DNA from: Lachnospiraceae bacterium
Lineage (GTDB): Bacteria > Bacillota > Clostridia > Lachnospirales > Lachnospiraceae
NCBI GenBank assembly: GCA_017448245.1
Contig: JAFSLV010000047.1
Location: 1-64,000 of the forward strand
Direction of reading: 5' to 3'
DNA: 64,000 nucleotides
Shown here: positions 33,016 through 48,937 of the stretch, one piece after another
How positions within the stretch are numbered: the first letter of the stretch is position 1
How the letters are laid out: every line of letters begins with the position of its first letter
Notes under the pieces: generated by a model
Told to the model about the DNA's origin: nothing
What the model saw: only the letters and a program-made list of their open reading frames with translations
Database searches by the model: none
Made by a program: the position numbers and the translations under genes

Positions 33016-34616
33016 ACCGTAAAAAAATTCTTGCCGGGGTTGCGCTTTGCTCCTTTCTGGCCGTACTTGCGCTCGGCATTCTCGTATGGCACAACCGGCA
33101 GATGGATCTTGCTGTGAAGGAGATCTCCTTTGCCTTCTCGGACGGCCTTTTTGCAAAAGACGAGCTGCGCGCCAATACCTTGTGCGGGACGGGTGCTCTC
33201 CTTACGCGTGCAATACGTCCCGCGGACGATGCGGCGGCCGCCCTTTTGTATGATGCCTATTACGATACGCTCTCCATCCGGGCATCCTCTGCGGCAATCC
33301 GCCGCGGAAACGATGCCCTCCAGTCTTTTTCCTGCGCCTCCCCCTCCTTTGATGCACTGCTGCCCATGCTGAAAGAACGCATGCAGGAGATGCTTGCCGG
33401 ACTCGTGGAATCGTCTTCGCGCTCGGATGAGATCTATGACGACACGCTTTCCTTTCGCAAAGAGATCGTGGAGGAAGTATTTCTTGCTTCTCTGAAGGAG
33501 GTACTCGGTCACGGCGTGACGGCGATTGAGACCACGGAGACTTCCGTGACCTATGCGCGCACGGCGGACGGATGGAAGGTTTCTTCCGCTCCGGGGATTG
33601 CGCTCGCTTTTGCGGGAGAGGATTTTTTGCTCGTTGCGGATACGCTCCTGGAGGAGGCCTCCGCTTCGCTCACCTATGTGCGTAAGCACTATTCGCTGCC
33701 ACCCGATACGCATCTCGGACCCGCGCCCGACGAAAACGCCTATATGGAAACGGAGGACCCGAAAGAGATCACGCGGCTTCTTGCAACGCCGCTTGCCGTA
33801 CAGCTCATCGACGGAAGGGATATGTATTACCGGGAGGACATCGATTTTATTCCGGGAGAACCGATCCGGGCCTATCTGGATGAAACGATCCTGGTGATTG
33901 TCTGGAAGGAGGCACGCTACGGATGTGCGGAGACGGTCTCCGAGATCTTTCTTTCGGATCCCTCGCAGCTGTGCCGCAAAATCGTGAATGACACCTATGA
34001 CTGCAATCAGTATCTGTTCGCGACGCAGCTTGCGCGGGAAGCGCAGGCGGTGCTTGCGATCGGCGGAGACCTCTACGACCATCCCGGCCGCAATAACGGC
34101 ATCCATGTCTATGACGGAGAGGTGCGTCATTTTGAACCCTATACCACCGACAGCTGCTTTTTTACCGCGGACGGCGAGATGCTCTTTGCCTACCGGGGAC
34201 AGTTTGCGACGCAGGAGGAAGCACAGGCCTACGTGGATGCACACAATGTGCGCTTCTCTGTCTGCTTCGGACCCGCGCTCATCGAAAACGGTGTTGACGT
34301 GTCTCCCGAAAACTATATCTTTGGCGAAATCCACGAACGCTACGCACGGGGTGCCATCGGCAAAAAGGACGACGGCGCACATTATCTCACGCTCAATATG
34401 AACCAGCAGGGACCGTCCTACTGGGCACTTTCCCTGCTGTCGGAACAGACGGAGACGATGCTCTCCTACGGCTGCACCACGGCCTATGCCCTCGACGGCG
34501 GACAGACCTGCTGCACGATCCTCGGCGGAGAACTCATCAACCGCGTCCAGCACGGTGAGGAGCGGGAGGTCTCCGATATCATTTTCTTTGCCACGGCCCT
34601 TCCCCCCGAAAAATAA
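33012..34616 (+). CDS. Anchored protein with phosphodiester glycosidase (NAGPA) domain
   Basis: 534 residues. An N-terminal signal anchor (about 5-27) is followed by a long helical region with no family I recognise (30-330). The C-terminal about 200 residues match the phosphodiester glycosidase/NAGPA domain: A-I-G-G-D-L-Y, N-G-I-H-V-Y-D-G-E-V, and the family's closing motif L-D-G-G-Q-T-C-C-T-I-L then E-R-E-V-S-D-I-I-F-F. Relatives cleave sugar-phosphodiester bonds in glycopolymers or spore cortex-related substrates. It starts inside the end of mecA. Confidence 0.87.
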   Translation: MNRKKILAGVALCSFLAVLALGILVWHNRQMDLAVKEISFAFSDGLFAKDELRANTLCGTGALLTRAIRPADDAAAALLYDAYYDTLSIRASSAAIRRGNDALQSFSCASPSFDALLPMLKERMQEMLAGLVESSSRSDEIYDDTLSFRKEIVEEVFLASLKEVLGHGVTAIETTETSVTYARTADGWKVSSAPGIALAFAGEDFLLVADTLLEEASASLTYVRKHYSLPPDTHLGPAPDENAYMETEDPKEITRLLATPLAVQLIDGRDMYYREDIDFIPGEPIRAYLDETILVIVWKEARYGCAETVSEIFLSDPSQLCRKIVNDTYDCNQYLFATQLAREAQAVLAIGGDLYDHPGRNNGIHVYDGEVRHFEPYTTDSCFFTADGEMLFAYRGQFATQEEAQAYVDAHNVRFSVCFGPALIENGVDVSPENYIFGEIHERYARGAIGKKDDGAHYLTLNMNQQGPSYWALSLLSEQTETMLSYGCTTAYALDGGQTCCTILGGELINRVQHGEEREVSDIIFFATALPPEK

Positions 34617-34653
34617 ATAAAACGACAGACGGACGGCTTGCGCCGCCCGCCTG
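34606..34653 (-). terminator. Rho-independent terminator closing the 15-gene operon
   Basis: On the minus-strand RNA a 12-bp stem (with two G-U pairs) closes a GCAA tetraloop at 34626-34653 and is followed by UCGUUUUAUUUAUUUUU. It lies just after the carbonic anhydrase stop codon. Confidence 0.75.
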
Positions 34654-34694
34654 TACCAAGGAGGGACTTTCTATGCGTGGTCTGCCGGTTAATC

Positions 34695-35264
34695 TTATAA
34701 CCAGCTTACTTCGCCCGTGCCGATATCGTAAATCGCCGCCATTACCTTCGTGCCGAGATGCTTGATGATCTCGTCCGCGCTGATCTGGGCCGCCATCGCC
34801 CTGGCATTCTTTTTGGCCACTTCGTTGACGGCTTCGCCGCCGACAGACGGTTTGATCTTGGCGGCAATGGCTTCGATGTTAGGAGGCAGCTCCCCGCCCT
34901 CGCATGCAGCCGTAACGGCGCCGCAGCTGGTGTGTCCGACAACGACGACCAGCGGACTTCCGAGGTGTTCCGCACCGTATTCGATCGAGCCGAGCACCAC
35001 TTCGTCCACGACGTTGCCGGCATTACGGATGACAAAGATATCGCCGAGTTTCTGATCAAAATAGATCTCGGGTGCCACACGGGAATCCGCGCAGCACAGG
35101 ATGATCGCAAACGGTTTCTGGCCGCCTGTCAGCGCGCCGCGGATCTCCTCATAGTTGTCCTTTGCGGACAGTTCGCCCTTCATAAAACGGGCATTGCCCT
35201 CTTTCAGAAACTGGAGCGCCTGCTCCGCATCCGTAATTTTTACACTGGGATCATGTAAATTCAT
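34695..35264 (-). CDS. Beta-class carbonic anhydrase
   Basis: 189 residues with all zinc-site residues of the beta class: Cys58, Asp60 and Arg62 (C-A-D-S-R), His111 and Cys114 (H-T-S-C-G-A-V). It interconverts CO2 and bicarbonate in the cytoplasm; no signal peptide is present. Start ATG 35264 follows AAGGAG. It is the last gene of the antiporter-like operon, 102 bases after DUF1576, with a terminator just after it. The association with ion-translocating membrane subunits suggests bicarbonate supply or pH control. Confidence 0.95.
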   Translation of the reverse strand: MNLHDPSVKITDAEQALQFLKEGNARFMKGELSAKDNYEEIRGALTGGQKPFAIILCCADSRVAPEIYFDQKLGDIFVIRNAGNVVDEVVLGSIEYGAEHLGSPLVVVVGHTSCGAVTAACEGGELPPNIEAIAAKIKPSVGGEAVNEVAKKNARAMAAQISADEIIKHLGTKVMAAIYDIGTGEVSWL

Positions 35265-35366
35265 AGCCTTCTCCTTTTCTCTTCTTGTTTTGAAAAACCT
35301 CCGGTTACATTGACGGTTCCGACAATACTCTCTTCTTCTTTTTTCCGGTTTACCCCCTTTCTTTCT

Positions 35367-36755
35367 CTATTGTTTCTCCTGATTGTTCCGTCGCAGCAAG
35401 GCCACTACCATCGGAACGAAGAATGTCACTACGAGGCCGAGACAGAATCCGTTGTTATACAGATTCATCCAGCCGTGCAGCCCGCCGGTATTGGGTACCA
35501 GCACGCTGTGTATCATGCCCGCAAAGAATCCGATCAGCGCCCCGTGCCGGTAAACGACGGGCGCCATGCCGCAACCGAAGATCGCGGCGATCAGCATGTT
35601 CTTGGAGCCGACATAGGCAAAAGCGGTCTCGAGCACCGGCACGCCGGTCAGAAGCGCCTTAATGGCGGTCAGTCCAAAGCTCATCGCATAGACGCCGGCA
35701 AAGATCGGTGCCATTGTGCGGACAGAAATGCCGTTTGCGGCAAAGCCCGTCACCGTAAACAGGCAGGCAAAGAGCGGGCCGTGTGCGTTGGCGGTGATCG
35801 TCAGTGCCCAGTACAGCAGGCAGAAGAAGCCGCAGACGGACATATTGACGAGCGTTGCGCCAAAGCCAAACTGCTCGACCGCTGAGCCGGCGTACTTGTG
35901 CGCGACGATCGTATCGATTTTGCCGCGTTCCTTGACCGCGATCAGCAGACCGCAGAGCATCAGATAGATCAGAAGCACCGCGATACCGATGGCGAGCGCT
36001 TTGTTGTTGATGTTCGGGAAATCATGATAGGGGCCGGGGCCGGTATGTCCGAGGCCGATCACCTTCATGATCGAAAAGATGAGGAAGCCGGCAAGGCCTG
36101 CGGCAAAGCCCGCATTGTACAAGGTCAGTCCCGTGTGCTTGTCGGGAAGGAAGCCCGCAAATACCGCCACCAGATAGCCCGCAATCAGACCGATCACGAT
36201 GGCGAGGACAAATCCGAGCCCCGAGAAGCGCGCCGTCTCTCCGATTGTCTCGTTAGACGAGCCGTTATGCACGATATAGAAGGTCATGATGCTGACCATC
36301 GGGGAGAGTGCCGCCGAAAACCAGCCGAGTCCCGTAACGGTATTGATCGCCTTCTTGTTGAGCTTGGCGTGCAGCAGCACGCCGAAGAACAGCGGCCATA
36401 CATTCCATAAGGTCTTGCCGCAGAAACCAAAGCCGAAGACCATGAACGCCGCGGCGATCGAGCCGCCGTTGACCGTCGTTTTGGTGATCAGGTAGCTCAG
36501 CATGACGACGATGACGAGGATGCCGGCATTGATAAACGGTACCCCCAGACGTCCGTCACCGACGACCAGAAACGTGTTCAGGTCGAGCAGTCCGGATGCC
36601 GTCTGCTGCAGTCTGAAGCCTTCCGCGATCTGTGCCATGGACGGCGTCAGAATCAGACCGATGATGATGGATACCAGTCCCAGTCCCATAAATACAATCG
36701 CACGCAGCGTATTGCCGACCGGCATAACCTCCACCTTGTTTTCGTTATTACTCAT
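35367..36755 (-). CDS. DUF1576 polytopic membrane protein
   Basis: 462 residues with about eleven or twelve predicted membrane helices. Two halves show similar glycine-rich re-entrant-like stretches (F-M-V-F-G-F-G-F-C-G-K-T, and L-Y-N-A-G-F-A-A-G-L-A-G-F against L-Y-N-N-G-F-C-L-G-L-V), so an internal duplication as in secondary transporters is possible. The family has no established function that I know of. It lies 26 bases after the NuoL-like gene and before carbonic anhydrase; a bicarbonate or anion channel or transporter is a reasonable but unproven guess. Confidence 0.85.
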   Translation of the reverse strand: MSNNENKVEVMPVGNTLRAIVFMGLGLVSIIIGLILTPSMAQIAEGFRLQQTASGLLDLNTFLVVGDGRLGVPFINAGILVIVVMLSYLITKTTVNGGSIAAAFMVFGFGFCGKTLWNVWPLFFGVLLHAKLNKKAINTVTGLGWFSAALSPMVSIMTFYIVHNGSSNETIGETARFSGLGFVLAIVIGLIAGYLVAVFAGFLPDKHTGLTLYNAGFAAGLAGFLIFSIMKVIGLGHTGPGPYHDFPNINNKALAIGIAVLLIYLMLCGLLIAVKERGKIDTIVAHKYAGSAVEQFGFGATLVNMSVCGFFCLLYWALTITANAHGPLFACLFTVTGFAANGISVRTMAPIFAGVYAMSFGLTAIKALLTGVPVLETAFAYVGSKNMLIAAIFGCGMAPVVYRHGALIGFFAGMIHSVLVPNTGGLHGWMNLYNNGFCLGLVVTFFVPMVVALLRRNNQEKQ

Positions 36756-36781
36756 TTCAATTTCCTCCGTTTCTTAAGACC

Positions 36782-39088
36782 CTACAGCGTCACAATCATC
36801 ACGTAAGCCGCCACCGCAAGCAGACCGAGCGCAAAGATGATCAGACCGTAGGCCAACGTCTGACGGACCAGCGTTGCCGCACCGGTATGCTCCGGACCGT
36901 CGCCGAAATCTCCGACGCTGCGGTCGAACAGCCTGTGGAAGAACGGAATGTGATATCCGGTATCTCTCATCTTCCTGACCCATGCGATGAGACGCTCGAC
37001 CATGGAAGGCTGATCCGCGCGTGCCTTTAACGCGTCCTCGATATCATCGAGTACCGGAATCCGCTCAAGCGGCGTGACGGTGCGGTTATCCTCTTCCTTG
37101 TCCCAGGTGTCGAGACCGCTGGCATCGTATTCCGCCTGGATCTTTGCCATGTTCTTTCGGCCGTCCACCTTATGCAGGGGATACCACTCTTTGGACTTCG
37201 CGATAAATTCATGCGCATTGGGCTTGCGCGGCATGTAAAAGTCTCTGACCTTCCAGAACACGTTGTAACCGATCCGGCCGATCACTTCGACCACGGAGCC
37301 GATCGTACGTGTCACAAACGCGCCGATGAACGGAAGGATCCCGATCATGACAGGACGGTAGATTTTGTCTTCCAGATCCAGCCACTTCGGCCACGCATTG
37401 ATGTAGACCTTCTTGCCGTTTTCGTCTCTTCCCATCAGGCATACGCGCACGACAAAGATGTAGATGATCGCGCCGATGGCAAGGGATGCGACCGCGCCGC
37501 GGACATTCTGCCAGACAAAGAAATCCACGCCGTGATCCGGCTCATGCCCGTAGAAGAAGCCTCTGGCATAATCGGCAAGCGGGATCATGGTCTTATAGAC
37601 CGTCATCCCCAGGAAGGGCAGGATCAGCGAGCAGAGCGTCAGCGTGATCGCACTGGCCTTGTTCATGTACTTTTTGTTGAGGCTGTCCATGTATTCCTGG
37701 TCGTAAGGATTCTTTTCCCAGAAGACCGCGATATAGATCTTGGTCATGTAGGCCGTCGTCAGACCGCCGGTCAGGGTAAAGATCGATTCCACAATCCGGA
37801 ATACATGAGCCGCAAACTCAAAGTCGTGATACGTCCAGATACGCTCCACGATCGACTCATGGATGAGGGTCTTGCTGATATAACCGCTCCAGAACGGCAT
37901 ACCGATGATGGCCAGCACGCCCATGCCGAAGATAAATTTGAGCAGCGGCTTGCGATAGCCGAATCCGCGCACCTCGTTGAGATTGAGCTTGTGCAGGTTC
38001 ATGTAGACGACACCCGCCGACATGAAGAGCACCAGCTTGATCAGCGAGTGGTTCATCATGTGGAGGATGGCACCCTGCTGTGCCATAAAGTGATAATGCT
38101 CCGTCGCCTCCTGGCTCATCAGGATACACTGCATCGATACAGCCGTCAGGATGAAGCCGATCTGTGACATCGATGAGCAGGCCAGCGTGCGTTTGAGGTC
38201 GACCGAAAACAGTGCGAGGAACGCGCCGCCGAACATCGTAATCACCGCGATGCCCAACAGAATGCATCCCCATACCCAGTCACCAAACAGCATATGCGCC
38301 GAGATGATGATGATACCGTAGACACCGGTCTTGGTCAGAACGCCCGACAACAGGGCCGATGCGGGCGCCGGCGCCACGGGGTGTGCCTTGGGCAGCCATA
38401 CGTGCAACGGGAACATGCCGCTCTTTCCGCCAAAGCCCACGATCATGAGGCCTGCCGCCCAGTAGAGCGGTGCCTTGCTCGGCAGTGCCGCGCAGGCGTC
38501 CTTGATCTCGTCGATGCGCAGCGTTCCGATCGTGTTGTACAACAGGAAGATTCCCATCAGGGTCACGAGACCGCCGAACACATTGAGGTAGGTATAGGTC
38601 TCGGACGCTCTCTGGGCGCCGGGCTTTTCGTCATGGATGACCATGACATAGGACGTGAATGCCATCACCTCAAAGAAGGTAAACAGCGTCAGCACGTCGC
38701 CCGAGATGAACACGGCGACCGTCGCGCCTTCCGTCAACAGCATAAAGAAGTAATAACGGTTGCGGTTGCGGTAGTGCGCAAAGTATTCCTTGGAAAAGAT
38801 CGTCGTGCACATCCACATCAGTGTGGTGATCACCGCGTAGATACTGCGGAAGCCGTCCATCTCAAAGAGAAGACCCTCTCCGTGTCCCCACCAGTAGATC
38901 GGGAAATACTGCGTTCCCTGACCCATGACAACGGTGACCATATAGATCGCCACAAGAAATTCCACCGCGGTAATCGCATCCGCGAAGTAATCCCTCATGT
39001 CCTTGTTTCTTCTGCCGATCAGGTAACTGCACAGCGCTCCGATCATCGGCCAGAAGACCAAAAAAGGTAGTAATACATGCGTGTTCAA
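36782..39088 (-). CDS. NuoL/MrpA-type proton- or cation-translocating subunit, extended
   Basis: 768 residues. The first about 500 are an antiporter-like (PF00361) domain with the conserved membrane Glu (T-F-F-E-V-M-A-F) and the Lys-bearing broken helix (G-F-G-G-K-S-G-M-F-P-L-H-V-W-L-P-K-A-H-P). Extra helices follow, then a soluble charged stretch of about 150 residues (from I-G-Y-N-V-F-W-K-V-R-D) and a final membrane helix at the C-terminus, like the lateral-helix anchor of NuoL but with a long insert. It is the last of five such subunits in the operon and the one most like NuoL/MrpA. Confidence 0.9.
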   Translation of the reverse strand: MNTHVLLPFLVFWPMIGALCSYLIGRRNKDMRDYFADAITAVEFLVAIYMVTVVMGQGTQYFPIYWWGHGEGLLFEMDGFRSIYAVITTLMWMCTTIFSKEYFAHYRNRNRYYFFMLLTEGATVAVFISGDVLTLFTFFEVMAFTSYVMVIHDEKPGAQRASETYTYLNVFGGLVTLMGIFLLYNTIGTLRIDEIKDACAALPSKAPLYWAAGLMIVGFGGKSGMFPLHVWLPKAHPVAPAPASALLSGVLTKTGVYGIIIISAHMLFGDWVWGCILLGIAVITMFGGAFLALFSVDLKRTLACSSMSQIGFILTAVSMQCILMSQEATEHYHFMAQQGAILHMMNHSLIKLVLFMSAGVVYMNLHKLNLNEVRGFGYRKPLLKFIFGMGVLAIIGMPFWSGYISKTLIHESIVERIWTYHDFEFAAHVFRIVESIFTLTGGLTTAYMTKIYIAVFWEKNPYDQEYMDSLNKKYMNKASAITLTLCSLILPFLGMTVYKTMIPLADYARGFFYGHEPDHGVDFFVWQNVRGAVASLAIGAIIYIFVVRVCLMGRDENGKKVYINAWPKWLDLEDKIYRPVMIGILPFIGAFVTRTIGSVVEVIGRIGYNVFWKVRDFYMPRKPNAHEFIAKSKEWYPLHKVDGRKNMAKIQAEYDASGLDTWDKEEDNRTVTPLERIPVLDDIEDALKARADQPSMVERLIAWVRKMRDTGYHIPFFHRLFDRSVGDFGDGPEHTGAATLVRQTLAYGLIIFALGLLAVAAYVMIVTL

Positions 39089-39120: not shown

Positions 39121-40572
39121 TTACAGCGCCATCAGTTGCGTGATCGGTTCCACCAGAACGCCGAATACGACGATTGCGACCGCGAGAATCGTGAGCGGCA
39201 CCGTCATATAGCGGTTGGGATCTTTGACGTCCTTGTTGACGGAAGCATCAAATCCCTGTCCCGGAATGAACGCATTGACACAGATACTAAACAGGTAAAT
39301 GGCCGTCAGCAGCGCGGAGATGGCAAGGACCACCGTGCCGGCAAAGCCGAGCGCGGAAGACCCCGAGCCGAAGGCTGCCACCGTCAAAAACCACTTGCTG
39401 AAAAATCCCGGCAGCGGCGGAATCCCGACCAGCGCCAGCGAAGCGATGGTAAAGACCACCATCGTCACGGGCATCTTTTTGCCGATCCCTCTCAGCTCCC
39501 ACACATATTCCCTGTGGGTCTTGTAGATAATGGCACCCGCGCACAAAAACAGCGTGATCTTGACGATCGCGTGTCCGACCAGATGCATCATGCCTCCCAG
39601 ATATCCTTCCGGACTCATCAGCGCCAGACCGAAGAGGATATAGGACAGCTGCGATACGGTCGAGTACGCAAGCCTTCTCTTTAAGTGCTTTTGCATCAGC
39701 GCCATGGCGGAGCCGTACAGGATCGTGATCAGGCTCGCCGCAAGAACAATCCCCTGTGCGGTGGTACCGCGCAATGTATCCGCGCCGATCGAGAAGTAGG
39801 TAACTCTCGCCACCGCAAAGACGCCCGCCTTGACGACCGCGACCGCGTGCAGCAATGCACTCACCGGCGTCGGTGCAACGGACGCCTGCGGCAGCCATGC
39901 GTGGAACGGCATGATCGCGCTCTTTACGCCAAATCCGAAGAAGCAGCAGACATAGGCGATCTGCAGTGCGCTCGCGCCGGCCGTGACCGAAGCCATCACG
40001 CCGCCCGGCACGAAAGCGGTGCTTCCTCCGGTGAAGGCGATGATCGCAATACCCATCATGGCTACCGTCGCACCCGAGATCGAGAAGATCAGATAGATGC
40101 GCGCGGCGGTTGTCGAGGCCTTGCTCTCATTGTGAATCACGAGTGGAACCGTGATCAGTGTCAGAAACTCGTAAAACAGATACAGTGTGATCAGATTACC
40201 GGCAAAGCTGATTCCCATCATTATGCCGAACGCCATCGTATAGAAGGCAAAGAAACGGTTTTCTCCCCCCTCATGGGTCATGTACTCAAAGGCATAGAAG
40301 ATGCAAAGGATCCACAGCACCGCGACGAGCGAGGCAAACATCCCGCCCATGCCGTCGACCGCAAACATCACCGCGTGCCCCTCCACGAGCGGTGCCAGCA
40401 CGAGCTGCGCACCCTGCAGCGTAAAGGAAATCATCAGCACAAAGACCGCATTGACGATGACCGTGGCTGCAACGTACCGCTCTCTTGCGCCGCGCTCTTT
40501 AAAATCGCGCTTCAGCATATAGAGACCTGCAATGATGGGAAGTACGATCGGTATTAATATTAAAACACTCAT
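39121..40572 (-). CDS. Antiporter-like (MnhD/NuoN-type) subunit, fourth MnhD-type copy
   Basis: 483 residues with about 14 predicted membrane helices and the PF00361 signature: membrane Glu in Y-L-F-Y-E-F-L-T-L-I, Lys in G-F-G-V-K-S-A-I-M-P-F-H-A-W-L-P-Q-A, and a further Lys in A-V-V-K-A-G-V. These residues form the proton or cation half-channels in complex I, Mrp and MBH. The gene is 18 bases after the neighbouring copy at 40591, which it resembles most (same Y-L-F-Y-E motif), suggesting that the two arose by duplication. Confidence 0.92.
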   Translation of the reverse strand: MSVLILIPIVLPIIAGLYMLKRDFKERGARERYVAATVIVNAVFVLMISFTLQGAQLVLAPLVEGHAVMFAVDGMGGMFASLVAVLWILCIFYAFEYMTHEGGENRFFAFYTMAFGIMMGISFAGNLITLYLFYEFLTLITVPLVIHNESKASTTAARIYLIFSISGATVAMMGIAIIAFTGGSTAFVPGGVMASVTAGASALQIAYVCCFFGFGVKSAIMPFHAWLPQASVAPTPVSALLHAVAVVKAGVFAVARVTYFSIGADTLRGTTAQGIVLAASLITILYGSAMALMQKHLKRRLAYSTVSQLSYILFGLALMSPEGYLGGMMHLVGHAIVKITLFLCAGAIIYKTHREYVWELRGIGKKMPVTMVVFTIASLALVGIPPLPGFFSKWFLTVAAFGSGSSALGFAGTVVLAISALLTAIYLFSICVNAFIPGQGFDASVNKDVKDPNRYMTVPLTILAVAIVVFGVLVEPITQLMAL

Positions 40573-40590
40573 ATGCTCTCCCCTCTCATC

Positions 40591-42072
40591 CTAAAAGATC
40601 GTTGCAGCTATCGTACTGAAAAAGTTACCCAGCGGATTGGTGAAAATACCGGAGCACACGGCAATAACCGTCAAAATGATGAGCGGTACCGTCATGTACA
40701 TGTTGACCTCGGTCTTCTGGAACTTGTCATACGGATAATCCTCTCCCGGGAAGAAGCCCTTGGCCATAATCGGAAGCAGGTATCCGGCGGTCAGAAACGC
40801 CGATGTCAGCAGCACGGCAGGTCCTAAGTACGAGAAGAACCCGATATTGGCCTGCAGCGCGCCCGTCGCCAAAAACCACTTGCTTTCAAATCCGCCCGTC
40901 GGCGGGATACCGATCAGGGCGATCGATGCCAGCGAGTAGCACCACAGCGTGATCGGCATTTCCTTCCCGATGCCCTTTAACTCCGTCACATAGGTCTTAT
41001 GTCTGCGGTAGATGATCGCACCGGCGCTCAAAAACAGGATGTTCTTGACCGTCGCGTGCGCCACGATGTGCAGGCACGCACCGACAAATCCGACCGGATG
41101 CATCGTCATCACACCGAACAGAACGTAGGACACCTGCGACACGGAGGAGTACGCGAGGCGCTTCTTAAAGAGCTTTTCCTTGAACGCCAGCATCGAACCC
41201 ATGAACACCGTATACAGGGTCAGGCTCAGGAGCACGTACTGTACCCATGTGCCTCTTAAGAATTCCACGCCTACCATATAGTAGATCACGCGGATGATCG
41301 CCAGCACGCCCATCTTGGTGATGACACCGGACAGCACCGCCGAAGCGGGCGCGGGCGCCACCGGGTGCGCATTGGGAAGCCACGCGTGTAAGGGGAACAT
41401 GCCGCCCTTACAACCGAAGCCGATAATTGTGAGCAAAACCATCACCTGGAACAGGAGCAGATGCCCCGAACCCGTGACCTTATCCAGCATCAGCGTTCCG
41501 CCCGCGACAAAATTGGTCGTCTCGCAAAACTCCGCAAGGAAGAAGAATCCCGCGAGCGCAATGGTCGCGCCGACGAAGGAATAGATCAGATATTTTTTTC
41601 CGGCCTTGACCGACTGTTCCGTCATGGAGTGCATGACCAGCGGGAACGTGATCAGTGTCATCATCTCATAAAAGAGATAGAGTGTCTGCAGGTTGGCCGA
41701 GTAGCTGATACCGATCAGCACGCCCACCGTCGCCGTGAAAAAGGTGAAGTAACGCTCGTCCCTGCCCTCGTGCTTGATATACTCGAAGGAGTAGAACGCT
41801 GCCGTGCACCATAAAAAACCGGCGATGATCGAGATCAGGCGGCTCATGCCGTCGATCTGGAGCGATATGTCCACGACGCGGTTTAAGTGCAGCAGGGTCA
41901 TCGATGCCCCGTCCGGCTGTGTGATCGCATTGGCGAGCACCACCAGGAAGTTGATGATGACCGTCGTCGCCACATAGATCTGCCGCGTCTTCCTGTCATG
42001 CAGCCTCAATGGCTGCACCAGCACACCCATGATAATCGGGAATACGACCGGAAAGAGTAAAGCGATATTCAT
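40591..42072 (-). CDS. Antiporter-like (MnhD/NuoN-type) subunit, third MnhD-type copy
   Basis: 493 residues, about 14 membrane helices. Key residues are kept: Glu in Y-L-F-Y-E-M-M-T-L-I, Lys in G-F-G-C-K-G-G-M-F-P-L-H-A-W-L-P-N-A-H-P and Lys in G-V-I-T-K-M-G. Note P-V-A-P-A-P-A-S-A, shared with the NuoL-like subunit at 36782. It lies between two other antiporter-like genes with 18- and 35-base gaps. It is predicted to move protons or Na+ across the membrane as one channel of a larger complex. Confidence 0.92.
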   Translation of the reverse strand: MNIALLFPVVFPIIMGVLVQPLRLHDRKTRQIYVATTVIINFLVVLANAITQPDGASMTLLHLNRVVDISLQIDGMSRLISIIAGFLWCTAAFYSFEYIKHEGRDERYFTFFTATVGVLIGISYSANLQTLYLFYEMMTLITFPLVMHSMTEQSVKAGKKYLIYSFVGATIALAGFFFLAEFCETTNFVAGGTLMLDKVTGSGHLLLFQVMVLLTIIGFGCKGGMFPLHAWLPNAHPVAPAPASAVLSGVITKMGVLAIIRVIYYMVGVEFLRGTWVQYVLLSLTLYTVFMGSMLAFKEKLFKKRLAYSSVSQVSYVLFGVMTMHPVGFVGACLHIVAHATVKNILFLSAGAIIYRRHKTYVTELKGIGKEMPITLWCYSLASIALIGIPPTGGFESKWFLATGALQANIGFFSYLGPAVLLTSAFLTAGYLLPIMAKGFFPGEDYPYDKFQKTEVNMYMTVPLIILTVIAVCSGIFTNPLGNFFSTIAATIF

Positions 42073-42107: not shown

Positions 42108-43595
42108 TTACAGCCCGATGTTCGACAACACTTCAATACCGCTGTGCAGGAAATCGGAAACCGGTCCCGCAGCCACACCAAAGATCACAACGCCTACCGC
42201 CAGCAGGATCAGCGGGAGCAGATCCTTGACCGGGCGCTCCTTCGAAGCGAAGGGCTCGGTGATTTCCTGGGCTTCCTTGCCGAAGAACGCACGGATGACC
42301 ACCGGCAGATAGTACAGCGCGTTCAGCAGAGCAGAGATCGAAAGCGGGATCAGCAGCCAGTAGTTGGAGCTTCCCACGATACCCGTCGCAAAGTTCCATT
42401 TGCTGTTAAAGCCTACAAAGAGCGGGATACCGATCATGGAGAGGCCGCCGATCGTGAAGAGCGCCATCGTGATCGGCATGAGCTTGCCTAAGCCTCCCAT
42501 CTTGTTGAGGTCGCGGTTGTGCGTCTGCTCGATGATGGAACCCGCTACCAGGAAGAGACCGGACTTGGTGACCGCGTGTGCCAGGATGTGGAACAGTGCC
42601 GCAAAGAGACCAAACTCGGTGCCGAGACCGATGCCCATGAAGATGTAGCCCATCTGTGCGACAGAGGAATAAGCGATCATGCGCTTGATATCCGTCTGCA
42701 TAATGGCGAGAACCGAGCCGCAGATCATGGCGACGACACCGACCACCATCACGACATTGAGCAGGATCCGCATGCCGGAGCCGGCGATGATGTCAAAGCC
42801 GACCGCACCGAATACCATCTTCATATAGAATACGATATACGCCTTCAGAACGAGCGAGGACAGGATGGCGGACGAAGGGGACGGCGCCGTGCCGTGTGCG
42901 TCCGGCAGCCAGATGTGGCAGGGGAACAGGGCAGCCTTGAACGCCACACCGGAGGTGATCAGCGCAAATGCCCAGATCACGTAAGCGGATTTTTCTCCCA
43001 TAAAGCCCGCGGCCTTGATGGCGGTGCCGATCGTCGTGATGTCCAGACCCTTGGTCGCCACATAGAGGATGACCACGCCCATCAGCACGAGCGAGGAACC
43101 GAGGATCGAAAGCGACAGGTATTTCAGACCGGCATGTACGTTTTCCGTCTGGTTCTTGACAATAACAATACCCGCGGCGGCAAAGCTGGAGAGTTCGATC
43201 GATACAAAGACGCCGATCAGACTTTCAAAGAAGACCACCGCATTGAGCGTGCCGAGCAGTGCCAGGACCAGGAAATAATAGAACGGGATCAGATCCTTTT
43301 CCACGTCGTGCGAGATCATGCTCATGGATGCCCACACGATCAGGAAGCCGATGATACCGAAGATGCAGGCCATGAAGCACTCGATTTTGCCGATGCGGAT
43401 GGACTGTGCGATAAAGCCCGATCCGAAACGGATCACCTGCTCTCCGCCGGACGATACATTCATCGTCATGACCACGGCGATCACGGCGTCAATGGCCGTC
43501 ACCACCAGAGCGATCATTCTTGCCGTCTTGTCGTTTTTGCAGACCCAGGCGGCGACTGCACCGACCAGAAGTAACACAATAATCGCGATTCCCAT
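42108..43595 (-). CDS. Antiporter-like (MnhD/NuoN-type) subunit, second MnhD-type copy
   Basis: 495 residues from ATG 43595; the open frame upstream overlaps the previous gene and was not used. About 14 helices. The channel Glu is in V-F-V-S-I-E-L-S-S-F-A, and the Lys helices are A-F-K-A-A-L-F-P-C-H-I-W-L-P-D-A-H-G and L-V-L-K-A-Y. The E-L-S-S-F-A-A-A-G and L-K-Y-L-S-L-S-I-L-G-S motifs relate it more to the copy at 43646 than to those at 39121 and 40591, so two sub-types are interleaved in this operon. Confidence 0.92.
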   Translation of the reverse strand: MGIAIIVLLLVGAVAAWVCKNDKTARMIALVVTAIDAVIAVVMTMNVSSGGEQVIRFGSGFIAQSIRIGKIECFMACIFGIIGFLIVWASMSMISHDVEKDLIPFYYFLVLALLGTLNAVVFFESLIGVFVSIELSSFAAAGIVIVKNQTENVHAGLKYLSLSILGSSLVLMGVVILYVATKGLDITTIGTAIKAAGFMGEKSAYVIWAFALITSGVAFKAALFPCHIWLPDAHGTAPSPSSAILSSLVLKAYIVFYMKMVFGAVGFDIIAGSGMRILLNVVMVVGVVAMICGSVLAIMQTDIKRMIAYSSVAQMGYIFMGIGLGTEFGLFAALFHILAHAVTKSGLFLVAGSIIEQTHNRDLNKMGGLGKLMPITMALFTIGGLSMIGIPLFVGFNSKWNFATGIVGSSNYWLLIPLSISALLNALYYLPVVIRAFFGKEAQEITEPFASKERPVKDLLPLILLAVGVVIFGVAAGPVSDFLHSGIEVLSNIGL

Positions 43596-43645: not shown

Positions 43646-45127
43646 TTACAGTATCTGAACGCCCTGTGTCAGCATGTATACCAGCAGAAATCCGCCGACA
43701 CCGAGCGCGATGTTGATTGCGGAGAAGCAACCGATGGAGACCGCATAATCCGCGGGCGCCACATCGCCTTCCGCCGCTGCAGTGCTTTCCTCCGTGCGCT
43801 TCGTCCAGATCTTGAGCGCCACGGGGAGATAATATATCGCGTTCAGGCAGGAGCTCAGGGCCAGTGCCAGAATAAAGATGATACTCTTGTCCTGTCCGGA
43901 CATTGCAAGATACACCTTGGAGGTGAATCCGCCGAAAAGCGGCACGCCGACCATGGAACAGGCGCCGATCACAAATCCGATTCCCGCCCATCTGTTGCGG
44001 CGGGCAGCGCCCTGCATATCCTCGATCATCTTACTGTGTCCGGATACCTCGATCAGTCCGCCCGCCGAGCTGAACAGCAACGGCTTGGTAAAGGCATGGA
44101 TGATCATATGGAAGAGCGCTGCGGACAGCCCCGCCCAGGTGCCCACGCCGATACCGGCGTAGATGTATCCGATCTGTGCGACCGACGAATAAGCGATCAT
44201 GCGCTTGAGGTTCTTTTCGCGGATGGCGAAGATACTGCCCATGATCATGCCGATGATGCCGAGTGCGAAGACCACATGCAAAAGGCCCATGCCGCGGATT
44301 GTCTCGATGCCGAAGACCCTGTAGTAGATCTTGATCAGCAGGATGATGTAACCCTTCACGACCACGCCCGAAAGGATCGAGGAAGACGTCGTCGTCGCCG
44401 TCGAGTGCGCGTCGGGCAGCCAGGTGTGGAAGGGGAACATCGCGCTCTTGACTCCGAGCGATACGGTGATCATGATCGCCGCCGCCATCAGCGGCCAGAT
44501 ATATGTGCCGCTCGCGGTCAGATGCGCAATCGCCTCCGACATCTGCGGAATCAGCAGATGTCCGGTGACCGAGTACAGCAGCGCGATGGAGATCAGGAAC
44601 AGTCCCGATGCCATCAGGCTCATGAACAGATACTTGATCGTCGCTTTTAAGGTCTCTCCGCTCTCCTTGACCATGACGATACCGCAGGACGCGATCGTAT
44701 TGATTTCGATAAAGACGTAGGCGGTAAAGATGTCATTGGTATAGATGAGCGCCAGAAGCGACAGCATCAGTAACAACAGTAACGAGCAGTAGCAGTTTTG
44801 CTTCGCGCTCTGGATATCCTCTTTGATCCCGTTCTTTCCTCCGATGATGGCAAGGAATACAACCGCCGCAAAGACACAGGCGAGGATCGCCTCCAGAAGA
44901 CCGAATCTCAGCTCGTTGCCCCAGGGGGCCGGGAAGTGACCTAACGTGTAGGTAATGGTCCCGCCGTTCTGCAGAAAATACGGAATCATCATGCCGGACA
45001 TCGCGGCGATCGCAACGAGGATGATCTGCGTCATCGCCAGCGCTGTCTTTGGCTTCTTCCCGAGGAGCAGAGCGACAATCGAACCGATCATCGCCAATAT
45101 AATTGAGATGAATGGTATATTGTTCAT
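43646..45127 (-). CDS. Antiporter-like (MnhD-type) subunit, first MnhD-type copy
   Basis: 493 residues, about 14 helices. The Glu of helix 5 is in Y-V-F-I-E-I-N-T-I-A, and the Lys helices are G-V-K-S-A-M-F-P-F-H-T-W-L-P-D-A-H-S and V-V-V-K-G-Y. It follows the MnhC-type gene with a four-base ATGA overlap, the position MnhD/MbhH occupies in Mrp and MBH clusters, so it is the canonical MnhD here. The three further MnhD-type copies and the NuoL-like gene follow it. Confidence 0.93.
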   Translation of the reverse strand: MNNIPFISIILAMIGSIVALLLGKKPKTALAMTQIILVAIAAMSGMMIPYFLQNGGTITYTLGHFPAPWGNELRFGLLEAILACVFAAVVFLAIIGGKNGIKEDIQSAKQNCYCSLLLLLMLSLLALIYTNDIFTAYVFIEINTIASCGIVMVKESGETLKATIKYLFMSLMASGLFLISIALLYSVTGHLLIPQMSEAIAHLTASGTYIWPLMAAAIMITVSLGVKSAMFPFHTWLPDAHSTATTTSSSILSGVVVKGYIILLIKIYYRVFGIETIRGMGLLHVVFALGIIGMIMGSIFAIREKNLKRMIAYSSVAQIGYIYAGIGVGTWAGLSAALFHMIIHAFTKPLLFSSAGGLIEVSGHSKMIEDMQGAARRNRWAGIGFVIGACSMVGVPLFGGFTSKVYLAMSGQDKSIIFILALALSSCLNAIYYLPVALKIWTKRTEESTAAAEGDVAPADYAVSIGCFSAINIALGVGGFLLVYMLTQGVQIL

Positions 45128-45495
45128 TTCTCTCCTTTCAGGACGTTTTTCAGGACGACTCCGTCAATGTCCAGTGTGTGATACTGCTGATACCACCGAA
45201 GCGCAAGCGCCAGGGCAAAGGCCGTTGTGGATACCGCGACGACGATGCCCGTCAGCACCAGGCCGCTCGGCAGCGGGTTGATGTACAGTGAGGCGTCCGT
45301 CTGACCGTCGCGGATGATCGGTGACATGGCTCCCGCGATATAGCCCTTTGCCGCGAGGAACAAAAACACCGAGGTATCCATGATGTTCAGACCGATGATC
45401 TTCTTGATCAGATTGCGCTGCAGAAGAAGCAGCAACAGACCGATCGCAAACAGGATCACCGCAGCCAGTTCGTAGTAATTGTTAAACAGATTCAT
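45124..45495 (-). CDS. mnhC: MnhC/NuoK-type small membrane subunit
   Basis: 123 residues from ATG 45495; the frame continues upstream without a good start. It has three membrane helices with the NuoK/MnhC pattern: G-L-L-L-L-L-L-Q-R-N-L-I-K-K-I-I-G-L-N-I-M, then V-L-T-G-I-V-V-A-V-S-T-T-A-F-A. The loop after helix two (G-Q-T-D-A-S-L-Y-I-N-P-L-P) is typical of MnhC/MbhG. In Mrp and MBH it sits beside MnhD in the membrane. It overlaps the next gene by four bases. Confidence 0.92.
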   Translation of the reverse strand: MNLFNNYYELAAVILFAIGLLLLLLQRNLIKKIIGLNIMDTSVFLFLAAKGYIAGAMSPIIRDGQTDASLYINPLPSGLVLTGIVVAVSTTAFALALALRWYQQYHTLDIDGVVLKNVLKGEK

Positions 45496-45514
45496 AGCCG
45501 CCCGTACCTCCCCT

Positions 45515-46624
45515 CTAAGACCGCCAGCTGGTGAACAGGTTATACAGTGCGTACATCGTGCATGCGACCACGAGGCCGACACAGATATTGAGCGGCAGAA
45601 TCAGTCCGGCCGAAAAGATCGAGCCGGGCGTTCCCAGAGGAATCGCGGATGCCGCACCGTTGGCGCCGGTGAGAATCGAGTAGGTCTTTAAGCCGATGTA
45701 GACGAAGAGCCCGGCCGCCATGATCTGCGTGCAGCGTTTGACGGTGATAAAACGCTCCGTGAAACGCTCGCCGTTGACCATATGGCACAGGATCAGGCCG
45801 CCGCCTAAGATCGTGCCGCCGGAGAATCCGCCGCCGGGCGACAGATGACCGTTCAGAACCACGTAGATCCCGTACAGAAGAATAAAGGGAAACGTGATGC
45901 CGATGATGACCTTGGCGGGAAGAGAGCGTACGCCCGTATTGACGTCGACCTCGTCCTCCGTCTTTTCCTCCCCGTTTTTGCGCTTGGACTGCTGTAACAA
46001 AAAGATCACGGTAACGGTCGCCGTAAAGAGCACAACCGACTCACCGAGTGTGTCAAAGGCGCGGTAGTCCAGGATGATGCCTGCCACCGCATTGACCGCT
46101 CCCGTGTCCGTCAGTCCCTGTTCCAGATAACGTCTGCTGACTTCATTGACGGCCGGCGCATCCGCCGAACCGAACCGGGGCAGTGTCGCAACCGTCACCA
46201 GCAGAACCAGCGCCAGCAGGATGCCGCTGATCACGGCGAATACGCGGTAGGAATGCTCCACGCCCGTAAGTTGTACTTTTTCGCGTTTGACCTTCGGTTT
46301 CTTTTCGCGTTTGGGCATCACGATCTCGTGCGGCTCAAAATGTGCGTGCTCGTGACCGTGTTCTCCGTGCGCGTCGTGACCGTGTGCATCGTCGTGGCCG
46401 TGCCCGTCATGGCCGTGCGCCTCTTCGTGCCCGTGGTCGTCATGACCGTGATCCTCATGACCGTGATCCTCATGACCGTGGTCATCGTGGCCGTGTGCGC
46501 CTGGCCCTTTGGGATCGCCGCCTTTGGCGTAATCGATCTCCGGCGGAATCTCCGGCGAATTGGCGTTGACCCAGTCACCGAAGGACAGTACGGTTTTCTT
46601 TCCGTCTTCAGATAGTAGACTCAT
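45515..46624 (-). CDS. MbhE-MnhB fusion protein with N-terminal His-rich tract
   Basis: 369 residues. Residues 44-99 contain 22 histidines in H-G-H-D/E repeats, a likely Zn/Ni/Co-binding tract. A Lys-rich stretch leads to a membrane helix (about 127-147) and the MbhE-like element (I-I-L-D-Y-R-A-F-D-T-L-G-E-S-V-V-L-F, about 190-207). The last 150 residues form the four-helix MnhB domain (L-N-G-H-L-S-P-G-G-G-F-S-G-G). In MBH these are two proteins, MbhE and MbhF; here they are joined. The start overlaps the MbhD-like gene by 17 bases. Confidence 0.9.
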   Translation of the reverse strand: MSLLSEDGKKTVLSFGDWVNANSPEIPPEIDYAKGGDPKGPGAHGHDDHGHEDHGHEDHGHDDHGHEEAHGHDGHGHDDAHGHDAHGEHGHEHAHFEPHEIVMPKREKKPKVKREKVQLTGVEHSYRVFAVISGILLALVLLVTVATLPRFGSADAPAVNEVSRRYLEQGLTDTGAVNAVAGIILDYRAFDTLGESVVLFTATVTVIFLLQQSKRKNGEEKTEDEVDVNTGVRSLPAKVIIGITFPFILLYGIYVVLNGHLSPGGGFSGGTILGGGLILCHMVNGERFTERFITVKRCTQIMAAGLFVYIGLKTYSILTGANGAASAIPLGTPGSIFSAGLILPLNICVGLVVACTMYALYNLFTSWRS

Positions 46625-46877
46625 CCTGATCCGTACCCTCCTCTCTTAAAGCATTGATCTTCTTCAGTGTCAGAATAAACAGCATCGTGGTGACACCGCA
46701 TCCGACCGCGGCTTCCGTGATCGCAAGATCCGGAGACTCGAGCGAAATCCACAGCACCGCCATGATCGAGCTGTAGGACATAAACACGATCACCGCGTTG
46801 AGCAGCCGCTTGATGAAGAAGACGCTGACCGCACATGCGACCAGAAATACCAACAGCAATACTTCGATTAGCGTCAT
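46608..46877 (-). CDS. MbhD-like (DUF4040/MnhA C-terminal) membrane subunit
   Basis: 89 residues from ATG 46877, with GGAGG upstream. It has three membrane helices with the MbhD pattern: L-L-N-A-V-I-V-F-M-S-Y-S, then L-E-S-P-D-L-A-I-T-E-A-A-V-G. This corresponds to part of the C-terminal extension of MrpA, split off as in archaeal MBH and Mbs. It overlaps MnhG by four bases and the fusion gene by 17 bases. Confidence 0.88.
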   Translation of the reverse strand: MTLIEVLLLVFLVACAVSVFFIKRLLNAVIVFMSYSSIMAVLWISLESPDLAITEAAVGCGVTTMLFILTLKKINALREEGTDQDESTI

Positions 46878-47197
46878 GGCAATTCCTCCACCTCGCACTC
46901 GTCTTCTAAATGATCGTTGGTTTCCACTTCAATCTTGCAGATCAGGTGGCTGGCCACCGGATTGGCGAGCCACACAAAGGCGGTGATCAGCAAAAGCTTC
47001 AGGATGCTTCCGGGATCTCCCGCGTAAAACATCAGGCCGATGCAGACGAGCATGATCGCGAGCGAATCGCACTTTGCCGCGACGTGCACGCGGTTCAACA
47101 CATATCTCAGTCTGAACAGCCCCATGACGGCAACGCCGAAAATGAACAGTCCCGCCACGATAAACACCGTTCCGGCGATCAGTCTAAACTGTCCCAT
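46874..47197 (-). CDS. mnhG: MnhG/MrpG-type subunit
   Basis: 107 residues from ATG 47197, chosen because the Shine-Dalgarno GGAGGG lies just before it and the upstream reading frame is a shadow. It has three helices with G-L-F-R-L-R-Y-V-L-N-R-V-H-V-A-A-K-C-D-S-L, the MnhG signature (L-R-l-P-D-x-x-x-R-x-H-A-x-t-k). The C-terminus is an acidic tail (E-D-E-C-E-V-E-E-L-P). It overlaps mnhF by 14 bases and the MbhD-like gene by four. Confidence 0.9.
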   Translation of the reverse strand: MGQFRLIAGTVFIVAGLFIFGVAVMGLFRLRYVLNRVHVAAKCDSLAIMLVCIGLMFYAGDPGSILKLLLITAFVWLANPVASHLICKIEVETNDHLEDECEVEELP

Positions 47198-47480
47198 GCG
47201 TTCCCTCCTTTTCTTTCTTTGCCGCACGCGCAAGCATGTTTCTCGCAAGACATACGACGGCAAGGAAGCTCAGGAGCGTATATACCAGCGCAATATCCAT
47301 GAACTGGTTGTCGTGAAGATACGCCCCGAAAAGCAGAATCAGTACCACGCCCTCGATGCTGATGATGTTGACGGCCACGAGCCGGTCCGTCATTCTCGGA
47401 CCTAAGATCGCCCTGACCAGACAGAAAAAGATCGTGACGGATAAAAAGCCCATGGCGACCAGTAAAATCGTATTTTCCAT
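47184..47480 (-). CDS. mnhF: MnhF/MrpF-type subunit
   Basis: 98 residues from ATG 47480, two bases after mnhE. It has three membrane helices and the family motif R-A-I-L-G-P-R-M-T-D-R-L-V-A-V-N, followed by Y-T-L-L-S-F. The C-terminus is basic (R-A-A-K-K-E-K-E-G). It is a small core subunit of the Mrp/MBH membrane domain. Confidence 0.93.
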   Translation of the reverse strand: MENTILLVAMGFLSVTIFFCLVRAILGPRMTDRLVAVNIISIEGVVLILLFGAYLHDNQFMDIALVYTLLSFLAVVCLARNMLARAAKKEKEGTHGTV

Positions 47481-47482
47481 GC

Positions 47483-47953
47483 TCACAGACCCCTTTCCAT
47501 GTTTTCCAGCTGCTTCTCCAGCGGATTGTTGTCCAGCCCCTCGCATGAGCGCACGTCCAGCGCGTGCACATACACGCAGTCATCCCCCACGTCGACCGTG
47601 ACCGTGCCGGGGGTCAGGGTGATGGAATTGGCCAGCGCCACGCGTCCGATGGATGTGCGCAGCCCCGTCTTGTGTCTGACGATCACGGGATTGATCTTCC
47701 TTTCCGGTTCGTCCGAAAGCACGATACCGATCACGTTGATATTGGCTTTCAGCACCTCCCAGATCAGCCGGATCACAAACAAAAGAAACGCGAGCGCGCG
47801 TGAAGCGAACTGCATGTCTCTTTGCACGCTCCATCCCGCAAAGGCGCGCAGAAACAATGTGACCAGCGCGACCGCAATCACGCCGGTGATGATCACATCG
47901 ATCGTCAGGCGTTCGTGAAACAGCAGCCATAGCGCAAACAGCAGTATCGGCAT
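47483..47953 (-). CDS. mnhE: MnhE/MrpE-type subunit
   Basis: 156 residues with two membrane helices at the N-terminus and a soluble C-terminal domain. Motifs are L-I-W-E-V-L-K-A-N-I-N-V, then L-A-N-S-I-T-L-T-P-G-T-V-T-V-D, the signature of MnhE. MnhE is essential for assembly of Mrp antiporters. It is 20 bases after the His-rich peptide gene and opens the block of antiporter subunits. Confidence 0.94.
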   Translation of the reverse strand: MPILLFALWLLFHERLTIDVIITGVIAVALVTLFLRAFAGWSVQRDMQFASRALAFLLFVIRLIWEVLKANINVIGIVLSDEPERKINPVIVRHKTGLRTSIGRVALANSITLTPGTVTVDVGDDCVYVHALDVRSCEGLDNNPLEKQLENMERGL

Positions 47954-47973
47954 TCCTTCAACCTCCTTTCCGG

Positions 47974-48252
47974 TTAATGATGTTCCTCTTCCTCGTGTTC
48001 CTCTTCTCCATGGCCTTCTTCTTCATGACCTTCTTCTCCATGGCTCTCGCCGTGCTCGTCGCCATGCTCTTCACCGTGTTCGTCCCCGTGGCCTTCTTCA
48101 CCGTGTTCGTCGCCGTGACCTTCACCGTGCTCCTCACCGTGCTCGTCACCGTGATGACCCGGTCCGTGTCCGTGGTTGACGTTGGCGACGACCGCCACAA
48201 GGATCGATAAAACCATGCACATTGCCAACACAAAACTCGCAAATCGTTTCAT
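47974..48252 (-). CDS. Short His/Glu-rich secreted or membrane-tethered peptide
   Basis: 92 residues from ATG 48252, with GAGGAGGA upstream. An N-terminal signal or anchor (about 1-24: F-V-L-A-M-C-M-V-L-S-I-L-V-A-V-V-A) is followed by a mature part made almost only of H, G, D and E, with about 18 histidines in G-D-E-H-G-E-E repeats. No family is known to me. It is a likely divalent-metal buffer outside the membrane. The start codon lies one base after the stop of the Crp-type gene, so the two are translationally coupled and belong to the antiporter operon. Confidence 0.8.
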   Translation of the reverse strand: MKRFASFVLAMCMVLSILVAVVANVNHGHGPGHHGDEHGEEHGEGHGDEHGEEGHGDEHGEEHGDEHGESHGEEGHEEEGHGEEEHEEEEHH

Positions 48253-48253
48253 C

Positions 48254-48937
48254 TCATTCCTCCTCGTCGAACTTTGACTCCGTGTTCGCATATGCCTGCA
48301 ATGCGTCAGGATCGATGATTCTGATCTTGCCCCGCCCGGTCTGGACGAGTCCCGCATCTTTCAGGATGTTTACGTTGCGCGTCACCGCTTCGCGCGTGGT
48401 GCCGACCTGCTCCGCCAGCTCCTCATGACTGATATGCAGTGTATCGCCGTTGTGTGCCCTGCTTCTTTCATAGAACCGGTGCAGGAACAGCGCAAGGCGT
48501 TTGCTGATATTTTTCTCCATCCGCGCCGATACCCCGAAGATCAGGGAACTCATCTGTGAGGACATCAGCTCCACGGTATAATCGCGGATCTCGGGAAGCC
48601 ACTCTTCGGCCTCCTGCCACTCTTCATACGGAATAAACCATATTTCACTTACTTCTCTTGCGAATAATTCCAGTGATAACGTACTGCTGTCAGCCAGAAA
48701 TGCCGGTGTCAGCAACAGGCATTCCATCCAGTGTGCGGAAAACACCACACGGCGCCGTCCGCTTTCATGACTGCTGTATAACGCAATGCTGCCGTCCCCG
48801 ACGATGTAGAGTCCGGCACGTTTTTTCAGAGATTCCCCGGGCGCGCAATGCCTGATAATGGTATAGTCGAGCATCGCGGCCTGCTGCAGTTCGGTAAGAG
48901 CGTTCCAAAAAGGAAAAGCCTGGTGGATTGCGGCCAT
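48254..48937 (-). CDS. Crp/Fnr-family transcriptional regulator
   Basis: 227 residues from ATG 48937; a GTG at 48949 is too close to the ribosome site. It has a cyclic-nucleotide-binding-like sensor domain (about 1-120), a dimerisation helix and a C-terminal winged helix (L-H-I-S-H-E-E-L-A-E-Q-V-G-T-T-R-E-A-V-T-R-N). Only two cysteines lie in the sensor part, so the four-Cys cluster of FNR is missing. It is the first gene of the 15-gene operon and one base before the His-rich peptide gene, so it likely controls its own operon and possibly nifJ. Confidence 0.92.
   Translation of the reverse strand: MAAIHQAFPFWNALTELQQAAMLDYTIIRHCAPGESLKKRAGLYIVGDGSIALYSSHESGRRRVVFSAHWMECLLLTPAFLADSSTLSLELFAREVSEIWFIPYEEWQEAEEWLPEIRDYTVELMSSQMSSLIFGVSARMEKNISKRLALFLHRFYERSRAHNGDTLHISHEELAEQVGTTREAVTRNVNILKDAGLVQTGRGKIRIIDPDALQAYANTESKFDEEE

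Follow-up and report, generated by a model that had tools for sequence, protein, structure and literature searches.

A redox-free Mrp-type operon with five antiporter-like subunits from a Lachnospiraceae bacterium, a likely stand-alone cation/proton antiporter

The window analyzed here is a stretch of 64,000 nucleotides from a Lachnospiraceae bacterium (GenBank assembly GCA_017448245.1, contig JAFSLV010000047.1, positions 1 to 64,000), and on its minus strand, at 34.6-48.9 kb, it carries a 15-gene Mrp-type operon with five antiporter-like subunits (APLS; PF00361). The operon is likely to encode a stand-alone, multi-APLS group 3 Mrp-type cation/proton antiporter, which would gear the cell's proton gradient to its sodium gradient. 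A multi-channel, stand-alone antiporter had already been put forward in an initial annotation made from the sequence; intact APLS channel residues, the cation-path subunits, the absence of PF01058 and PF00346 from the genome and a shared architecture in 118 complete loci, none with a NuoB-like gene, all point the same way. Group 3 mrp operons are defined by the lack of a canonical mrpA and an irregular gene order, with multiple mrpD allowed (PMC8415708, PMC5703873). The occurrence of several mrpD genes in this group was thus already known from the parts of these sources used here, one of which describes mrpD as “sometimes with multiple copies” (PMC8415708).

The genes run from 48,937 to 34,695, with spacing from overlaps (F/G, G/MbhD, MbhD/E-B and C/D1) up to 102 bases. 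A Crp/Fnr-type regulator (48254..48937; PF13545, 63.8 bits, with PF00027 under its cut-off) is followed by a His/Glu/Asp-rich small protein with one N-terminal transmembrane segment (47974..48252; 18 His and 28 Asp plus Glu in 92 amino acids; no Pfam match). The cation-module genes come next, all passing the Pfam cut-offs: MrpE/MnhE (47483..47953; PF01899, 112.4 bits), MrpF (47184..47480; PF04066, 51.3 bits), MrpG (46874..47197; PF03334, 78.2 bits), an MbhD-like protein corresponding to the first part of the MrpA C-terminal domain (46608..46877; PF13244, 68 bits), a fusion of a His-rich N-terminal stretch with MbhE and MnhB (45515..46624; PF20501, 39.7 bits, and PF04039, 82.1 bits) and a MrpC/NuoK-like protein (45124..45495; PF00420, 80.2 bits). 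The five APLS, named D1 (43646..45127; 195.8 bits), D2 (42108..43595; 211 bits), D3 (40591..42072; 179.6 bits), D4 (39121..40572; 191.1 bits) and L (36782..39088; 184 bits; 768 amino acids, with a TTG start as listed), all pass PF00361. The last two genes encode a DUF1576 membrane protein (35367..36755; PF07613, 175.3 bits over two stretches) and a beta-carbonic anhydrase (34695..35264; PF00484, 113.3 bits) with CxDxR and HxxC motifs, which we take to be characteristic of such enzymes; both proteins score above their Pfam cut-offs. Both the order and the names of these 15 genes given by the initial annotation are borne out by the open reading frame (ORF) positions and Pfam; so is its terminator, an intrinsic-terminator-like hairpin on the same strand just past the anhydrase gene (34625..34654; 13 pairs, nine of them G-C, with a T tail).

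The own genome (2.54 Mb in 48 contigs, 99.47% complete) contains five PF00361 matches, every one inside this operon, and a profile search of the whole genome gave no match to PF01058 (NuoB/MbhJ) or PF00346 (NuoD/MbhL), so the absence of a redox module claimed by the initial annotation holds genome-wide for these two families. Furthermore, E. coli queries found no NuoB or NuoC/D of complex I at positions 30001-55000 of the window. MBH, MBS or another energy-converting hydrogenase would call for PF01058 and PF00346 subunits, and a canonical group 1 or 2 Mrp for a one-piece MrpA and two APLS; here the MrpA is split and the APLS are five. The features of group 3 are those found: the MrpB, C, D, E, F and G families are all detected by Pfam, canonical mrpA is absent, the order is irregular, and the MbhD and MbhE parts stand apart from every APLS. 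Homologues of the entire cation module, namely E, F, G, the MrpA C-terminal parts (MbhD, MbhE), B and C, are present in the operon.

All five APLS appear to be functional. Each of them has Glu, Lys, Lys, His and Lys where E. coli NuoM has E144, K234, K265, H348 and E407, i.e., the proton-channel residues expected of a group 3 Mrp occur in five out of five. A comparison of two close relatives gave nonsynonymous over synonymous divergences (dN/dS) of 0.050/0.51 (D1), 0.016/0.33 (D2), 0.014/0.26 (D3), 0.033/0.37 (D4) and 0.042/0.49 (L), with ratios of ~0.05-0.10 that correspond to purifying selection, and each paralogue type holds its place in the gene order. In the APLS tree, D1 and its extra copy D2 are sister groups, as are D3 and D4, with L apart, and the stand-alone Mrp of Peptoclostridium acidaminophilum has one member per APLS type; a three-APLS set was therefore probably enlarged by tandem duplication. 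None of the NCBIfam models shown (the best 25 of 72-76 per APLS) reaches its curated cut-off. The comparison with PDB sequences covered D1, D4 and L; the best matches were MbhH and MbsH, and the strongest NuoL/MrpA matches were those of D4. The “NuoL-type gene” of the initial annotation, L, resembles NuoL only by its C-terminal extension (read from the sequence as a transmembrane segment, ~190 amino acids and a final transmembrane segment); it is closer in sequence to MbhH, MrpD and HyfB, and the PDB ranks, the NCBIfam ranks and the APLS tree led us to reject it as a NuoL orthologue.

The cation path appears equally well kept in the operon family, with one residue in an unexpected place. Glu55 of the MbhD-like protein, aligned to MbhD E69, is conserved in 108 of 110 sequences; the Asp and Glu of the MbhE DTLGE motif, retained in the fusion, occur in 105 of the 112 rows, the other 7 being gapped at that place; and MrpC Asp40, at the position of MbhG D37, is conserved in 109 of 111. 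On MrpF, the residue D35 has been called invariably conserved and its D35L replacement is inactive, according to the part of the source consulted (PMC7419157). The Asp (D35f) of canonical Mrp and MBH is not found in this family, its site being Asn in 108/108 sequences (Asn38 in the window); MrpG carries instead an acid at position 44 (Asp in 108 of 109, Glu in the remaining one), a site occupied by Ala or Thr in three matching MrpG chains of solved complexes. For comparison, 60 control loci were collected, 30 as the best Pfam matches of 398 genomes and the others as the best matches to an F-acid MrpG in 299; F and G were both present in 59 (L250 being the exception), giving 54 distinct pairs across the phylum. 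In 26 of these the Asp is on G, and F has Asn (24), Thr (1) or Gly (1); the other 28 have Asp on F and a non-acidic residue on G. Eight further loci (Alpha-, Beta- and Gammaproteobacteria, Actinomycetota, Deinococcota, Thermomicrobiota and Halobacteria), hand-picked from 40 records matched by the same F-acid MrpG query and consequently leaning to that class, all show the second pattern, with the acid on F only. Exactly one acid per F/G pair was thus found in 62/62 distinct control loci; they are not 62 independent events, since the tree built from 65 F+G pairs after masking both acid columns has one deep split (support 99 and 88) and a single change. By sequence, the acid has moved to the other subunit instead of disappearing, and this speaks for a functional cation path.

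An L orthologue (identity of at least 45%) is found in 13 of 116 related genomes, the own genome counted. A scan of named genomes matched at least 598 stretches; the best 80, going by their labels, come mostly from Lachnospiraceae and other Clostridia, many of them from guts, with Erysipelotrichaceae- and Treponema-labelled assemblies as well. These 80 loci and 40 more from the order gave, after dropping duplicates, 108 distinct complete operons (107 loci plus the window), whose counts are not a census because the loci were gathered by similarity to L or D2. The APLS set is D1-D3-D4-L in 96 of them, D1-D2-D3-D4-L in six (the window clade), D1-D2-D2-D3-L in two and D1-D2-D3-L in two, and two more have three APLS; five APLS are hence present in eight, probably by two different routes. 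D2-type subunits (identity of at least 50%) are rare; in a sample of 392 genomes from the order, 4 have them. The full 15-gene set is seen in 6 of the 108 (some loci end at contig edges), so that the 15 genes as one conserved system, whose persistence in relatives the initial annotation had offered as a check, had to be rejected. What is conserved more widely is the smaller core E-F-G-MbhD-MbhE/B-C followed by three to five APLS, and the Crp, His-rich peptide and anhydrase genes are seen in a small clade only. The initial annotation had also named co-occurring redox genes as evidence that would overturn it: no NuoB-like gene was found in 118 complete loci with a model that does detect Ensifer NuoB, and the E. 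coli redox queries matched 1 of 133 loci, a NuoG-like ORF (104 bits; L172:13533-14684) located downstream of an operon with four APLS and DUF1576. Eight relatives with the operon entered the redox-family profile search; PF01058 was found in one alone (G008), on another contig, and of the other seven, three have a completeness of 66-76%. Two loci are irregular, by assembly error or decay: in L185 the L gene is broken into two ORFs (462 and 199 amino acids), and L125 has an additional 158-amino-acid piece of D4. The L subunits of the 15-gene cassette in loci L056-L061, labelled Lachnospiraceae, Oscillospiraceae, Erysipelotrichaceae and Solobacterium, are 71-84% identical to that of the window, and that of the Treponema locus (L062) is 49% identical; these identities across labels suggest transfer among gut bacteria, or mislabelled assemblies.

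A further line of evidence comes from deeper relatives, represented by 20 G-acid loci of up to 19.5 kb each. Nineteen of them are clear of contig ends, with three APLS in 13, two in two, four in three and five in L265. Nine of the 20 (L266, L267, L269, L271, L273, L275, L279, L280 and L284) have a complete set of rnfCDGEAB genes upstream of mrpE and codirectional with it, as well as apbE downstream of the APLS; one such locus was confirmed gene by gene against NCBIfam. L273 and L284 additionally contain a moaC/moaB-type gene. Queries for NuoB, NuoCD, HyfG and HyfI matched none of the 20, and the Ensifer positive control was matched. L265 has one APLS immediately before mrpE and four past mrpC, the last of the stretch's letters cutting off one of them; it may be a further system with five APLS, this one with a redox link. 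L131, a four-APLS member of the operon family, has apbE downstream and no rnf within its stretch. In the own genome, RnfC is matched with 474.7 bits, and a duplicated V-type proteolipid of 161 amino acids contains what we take to be a Na+-ligand motif. We recognized no rnf-mrp superoperon, F/G acid exchange or redox-free five-APLS Mrp in the open-access literature, and looking for Mrp in PMC10213532 gave no match.

The mechanism that we propose would place the APLS in a row outward from MrpC, in the order D1, D2, D3, D4 and L, each passing protons and being coupled to Na+ (or K+) through E/F/G-MbhD-C, with the cation-entry carboxylate on MrpG in place of MrpF. What the sequences show is the gene content, the residues, the lack of the two redox families and the conservation; assembly into one particle, the subunit order, the ion, the direction and the ratio are inferred. 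In a fermenter, such a complex would gear the proton gradient to the sodium gradient, both of which Rnf and the V-type ATPase would maintain. On thermodynamic grounds, more protons per sodium would favor proton-driven sodium export at low proton-motive force. The reverse mode, with sodium influx driving proton export, is possible provided that several cations move. This direction has been proposed for Pyrococcus furiosus at low pH, and Na+ is reported as the coupling ion of its stand-alone group 3 Mrp, in the portion of the source used (PMC8415708). The weakest step is the accessory one, in which a small clade would have gained the anhydrase, DUF1576 and the His-rich segments, probably for CO2/pH handling.

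With regard to these accessory genes, the anhydrase is seen in 7 of the 108 distinct operons, each of which also has DUF1576 and the His-rich gene; in the Treponema locus the three form a block upstream. DUF1576 follows L without the anhydrase in L113, L115 and L172. Orthologues of the His-rich small protein occur in 6 of the best 80 named loci, and a fusion protein with at least 15 His in 5 of 112 sequences, all from anhydrase-bearing operons. DUF1576 is found in 92 of 295 genomes of the order; the anhydrase accompanied none of 20 other DUF1576 loci within ~1.5 kb, and an APLS one of them, so a general DUF1576-anhydrase pair was rejected. PF07613 matches DUF1576 twice, in the window and in most listed genomes, as an internally duplicated membrane protein would, and no paper on DUF1576 was found in the open-access literature. 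The two His/Asp/Glu-rich stretches (the small membrane protein, 47974-48252, and the N-terminus of the fusion, 45515-46624) might serve as a proton buffer or metal store. That the accessory genes have a local role in handling CO2, pH or metals is conjecture.

Three other explanations were weighed against the stand-alone antiporter. The extra APLS might be redundant paralogues distributed over alternative complexes, each particle holding two or three, as the sister-group pairs D1/D2 and D3/D4 and the existence of operons with two, three, four and five APLS would allow; we regard this as unlikely, given paralogue types fixed in gene order, low dN/dS in all five and L, the sole APLS with a long extension, in single copy in the window. 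Improbable, in our opinion, is the membrane half of a redox-driven pump with electron-transfer subunits encoded elsewhere (MBH/Ehr-like or Rnf-docked). It would explain the MBH gene order, the best PDB matches to MbhH and MbsH, an Ensifer APLS homologue adjoining NuoA-F, the rnf genes upstream in 9 of the 20 deeper relatives and the NuoG-like ORFs close to the operon in L265 and L172; it has to face, however, the lack of PF01058 and PF00346 in the own genome, of NuoB-like matches in the 118 complete loci and of NuoB, NuoCD, HyfG and HyfI in the deeper loci. Rnf, besides, is a complete pump in itself. Quite improbable, finally, is a carbon machine in which proton or sodium flow would act with DUF1576 and the anhydrase to drive the hydration of CO2 or the movement of bicarbonate, in the manner of DabAB or NDH-1MS. 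The ion-driven bicarbonate system suggested by the initial annotation is of this kind, and finds support in the joint presence of anhydrase, DUF1576 and the His-rich gene in 7/7 anhydrase-bearing operons, the Treponema block included; it fares poorly given that the anhydrase is unseen in 101 of the 108 (some ending at contig edges) and resembles an ordinary soluble beta enzyme, that DUF1576 is widespread and mostly unlinked, and that the own genome has no DabA (PF10070; 0 matches, with B. subtilis and H. volcanii as positive controls). CupA/CupB of NDH-1MS are not among the Pfam matches of the 15 proteins, a search that included no Cup model.

The stand-alone five-channel antiporter has its own difficulties. 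Five genes need not equal five subunits per particle, the own-genome Rnf sits on a different contig from the operon, and three NuoG-like ORFs lie upstream in the G-acid locus L265. MrpC has Phe at the site of MrpC H40. Asn at MrpF D35 is mild in B. subtilis and detrimental in E. coli, in the results available from that source (PMC7419157), so the F/G exchange may matter less than its conservation suggests. Moreover, the extension of L, measured over the 108 operons as the W566-L749 spacing (with W at the first anchor in 97 of them), is 163-185 residues in the window clade and 106-109 in the other type with five APLS; D1-D3-D4-L operons span 80-177, the two D1-D2-D3-L operons have 89 and 186, and the two with three APLS have 75 and 89. 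A longer lateral helix with more APLS was consequently rejected for want of consistent scaling, and the lateral-helix argument taken from expanded complex I does not apply in general.

Several known systems come close to this operon. Its MBH order without a hydrogenase was correctly recognized by the initial annotation, and is of a kind already described for group 3 mrp operons and for P. furiosus, whose stand-alone mrpEFGBB'CD shares the E-F-G-first order, the split MrpA, the MbhD/MbhE/MnhB parts and the lack of a redox module; as described in the part of the source seen, it has one APLS and no MrpA, whereas the window operon has five APLS, one with a long C-terminal extension (PMC8415708). 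The candidate phylum NPL-UPA2 has MrpEFGBBBCD plus MrpDD in the same listed order as the window, with Rnf and a V/A-type ATPase in the genome, the A-type ATPase being predicted to be Na+-dependent; its D-type genes or APLS are three, against five in the window, they are known by annotation only, and the available portion of the report mentions no accessory genes (PMC6305446). The P. acidaminophilum plasmid Mrp (L139) is likewise a redox-free E-F-G-MbhD-MbhE-B-C plus APLS system with Asn on MrpF and Asp on MrpG, but has three APLS and unfused MbhE and MnhB. In MBH and MBS of P. furiosus (6CFW, 6U8Y) the membrane subunits and their order are homologous to those of the window; both, unlike the window, carry redox subunits and the MrpF-type Asp, and the MBS G subunit has Ala, as compared with F Asn and G Asp here. 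The canonical Anoxybacillus and Bacillus Mrp (6Z16, 7QRU) share the subunit families and the key Glu/Lys/Asp residues, and differ in having two APLS, a one-piece MrpA and Asp on MrpF, as far as the consulted parts of both papers go (PMC7419157, PMC9568556). One of them quotes one to three APLS per complex, lately four (PMC7419157). Five ion-pumping subunits in one cluster are described, in the excerpt used, for Complex_I_3 of Ca. Manganitrophaceae, a redox-driven complex I, whereas the window genome has neither the NuoB nor the NuoD family (PMC9040806).

The family is of wider interest because natural operons with anything from two to five channels make stoichiometry measurable against channel number without a redox arm, and because the F/G carboxylate exchange singles out one testable residue pair in the sodium path. 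In addition, the rnf-mrp-apbE arrays suggest that some anaerobes operate Rnf and Mrp as a single energy-conserving unit. A broader view, which we put forward tentatively and hold to be possible rather than probable, is that there are two deep Mrp classes, with an F- or a G-held cation-entry carboxylate; that the G-acid class of anaerobes would be an Rnf-tied ion-gradient gearbox, its ratio tuned by tandem channel duplication from two to five; and that the window would hold one of two independently reached five-channel versions in the family.

Elsewhere in the window, positions 3819-6334 carry two adjacent genes that read as tyrosine-recombinase-like, beside a UvrB-like gene at 6659; the G+C content of this stretch is lower (~47% vs. 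55%), and it looks like the end of an integrated element. Just upstream, at 3349-3451, lies the sole Rfam match of the window, a pemK RNA motif (RF02913, 63.4 bits).

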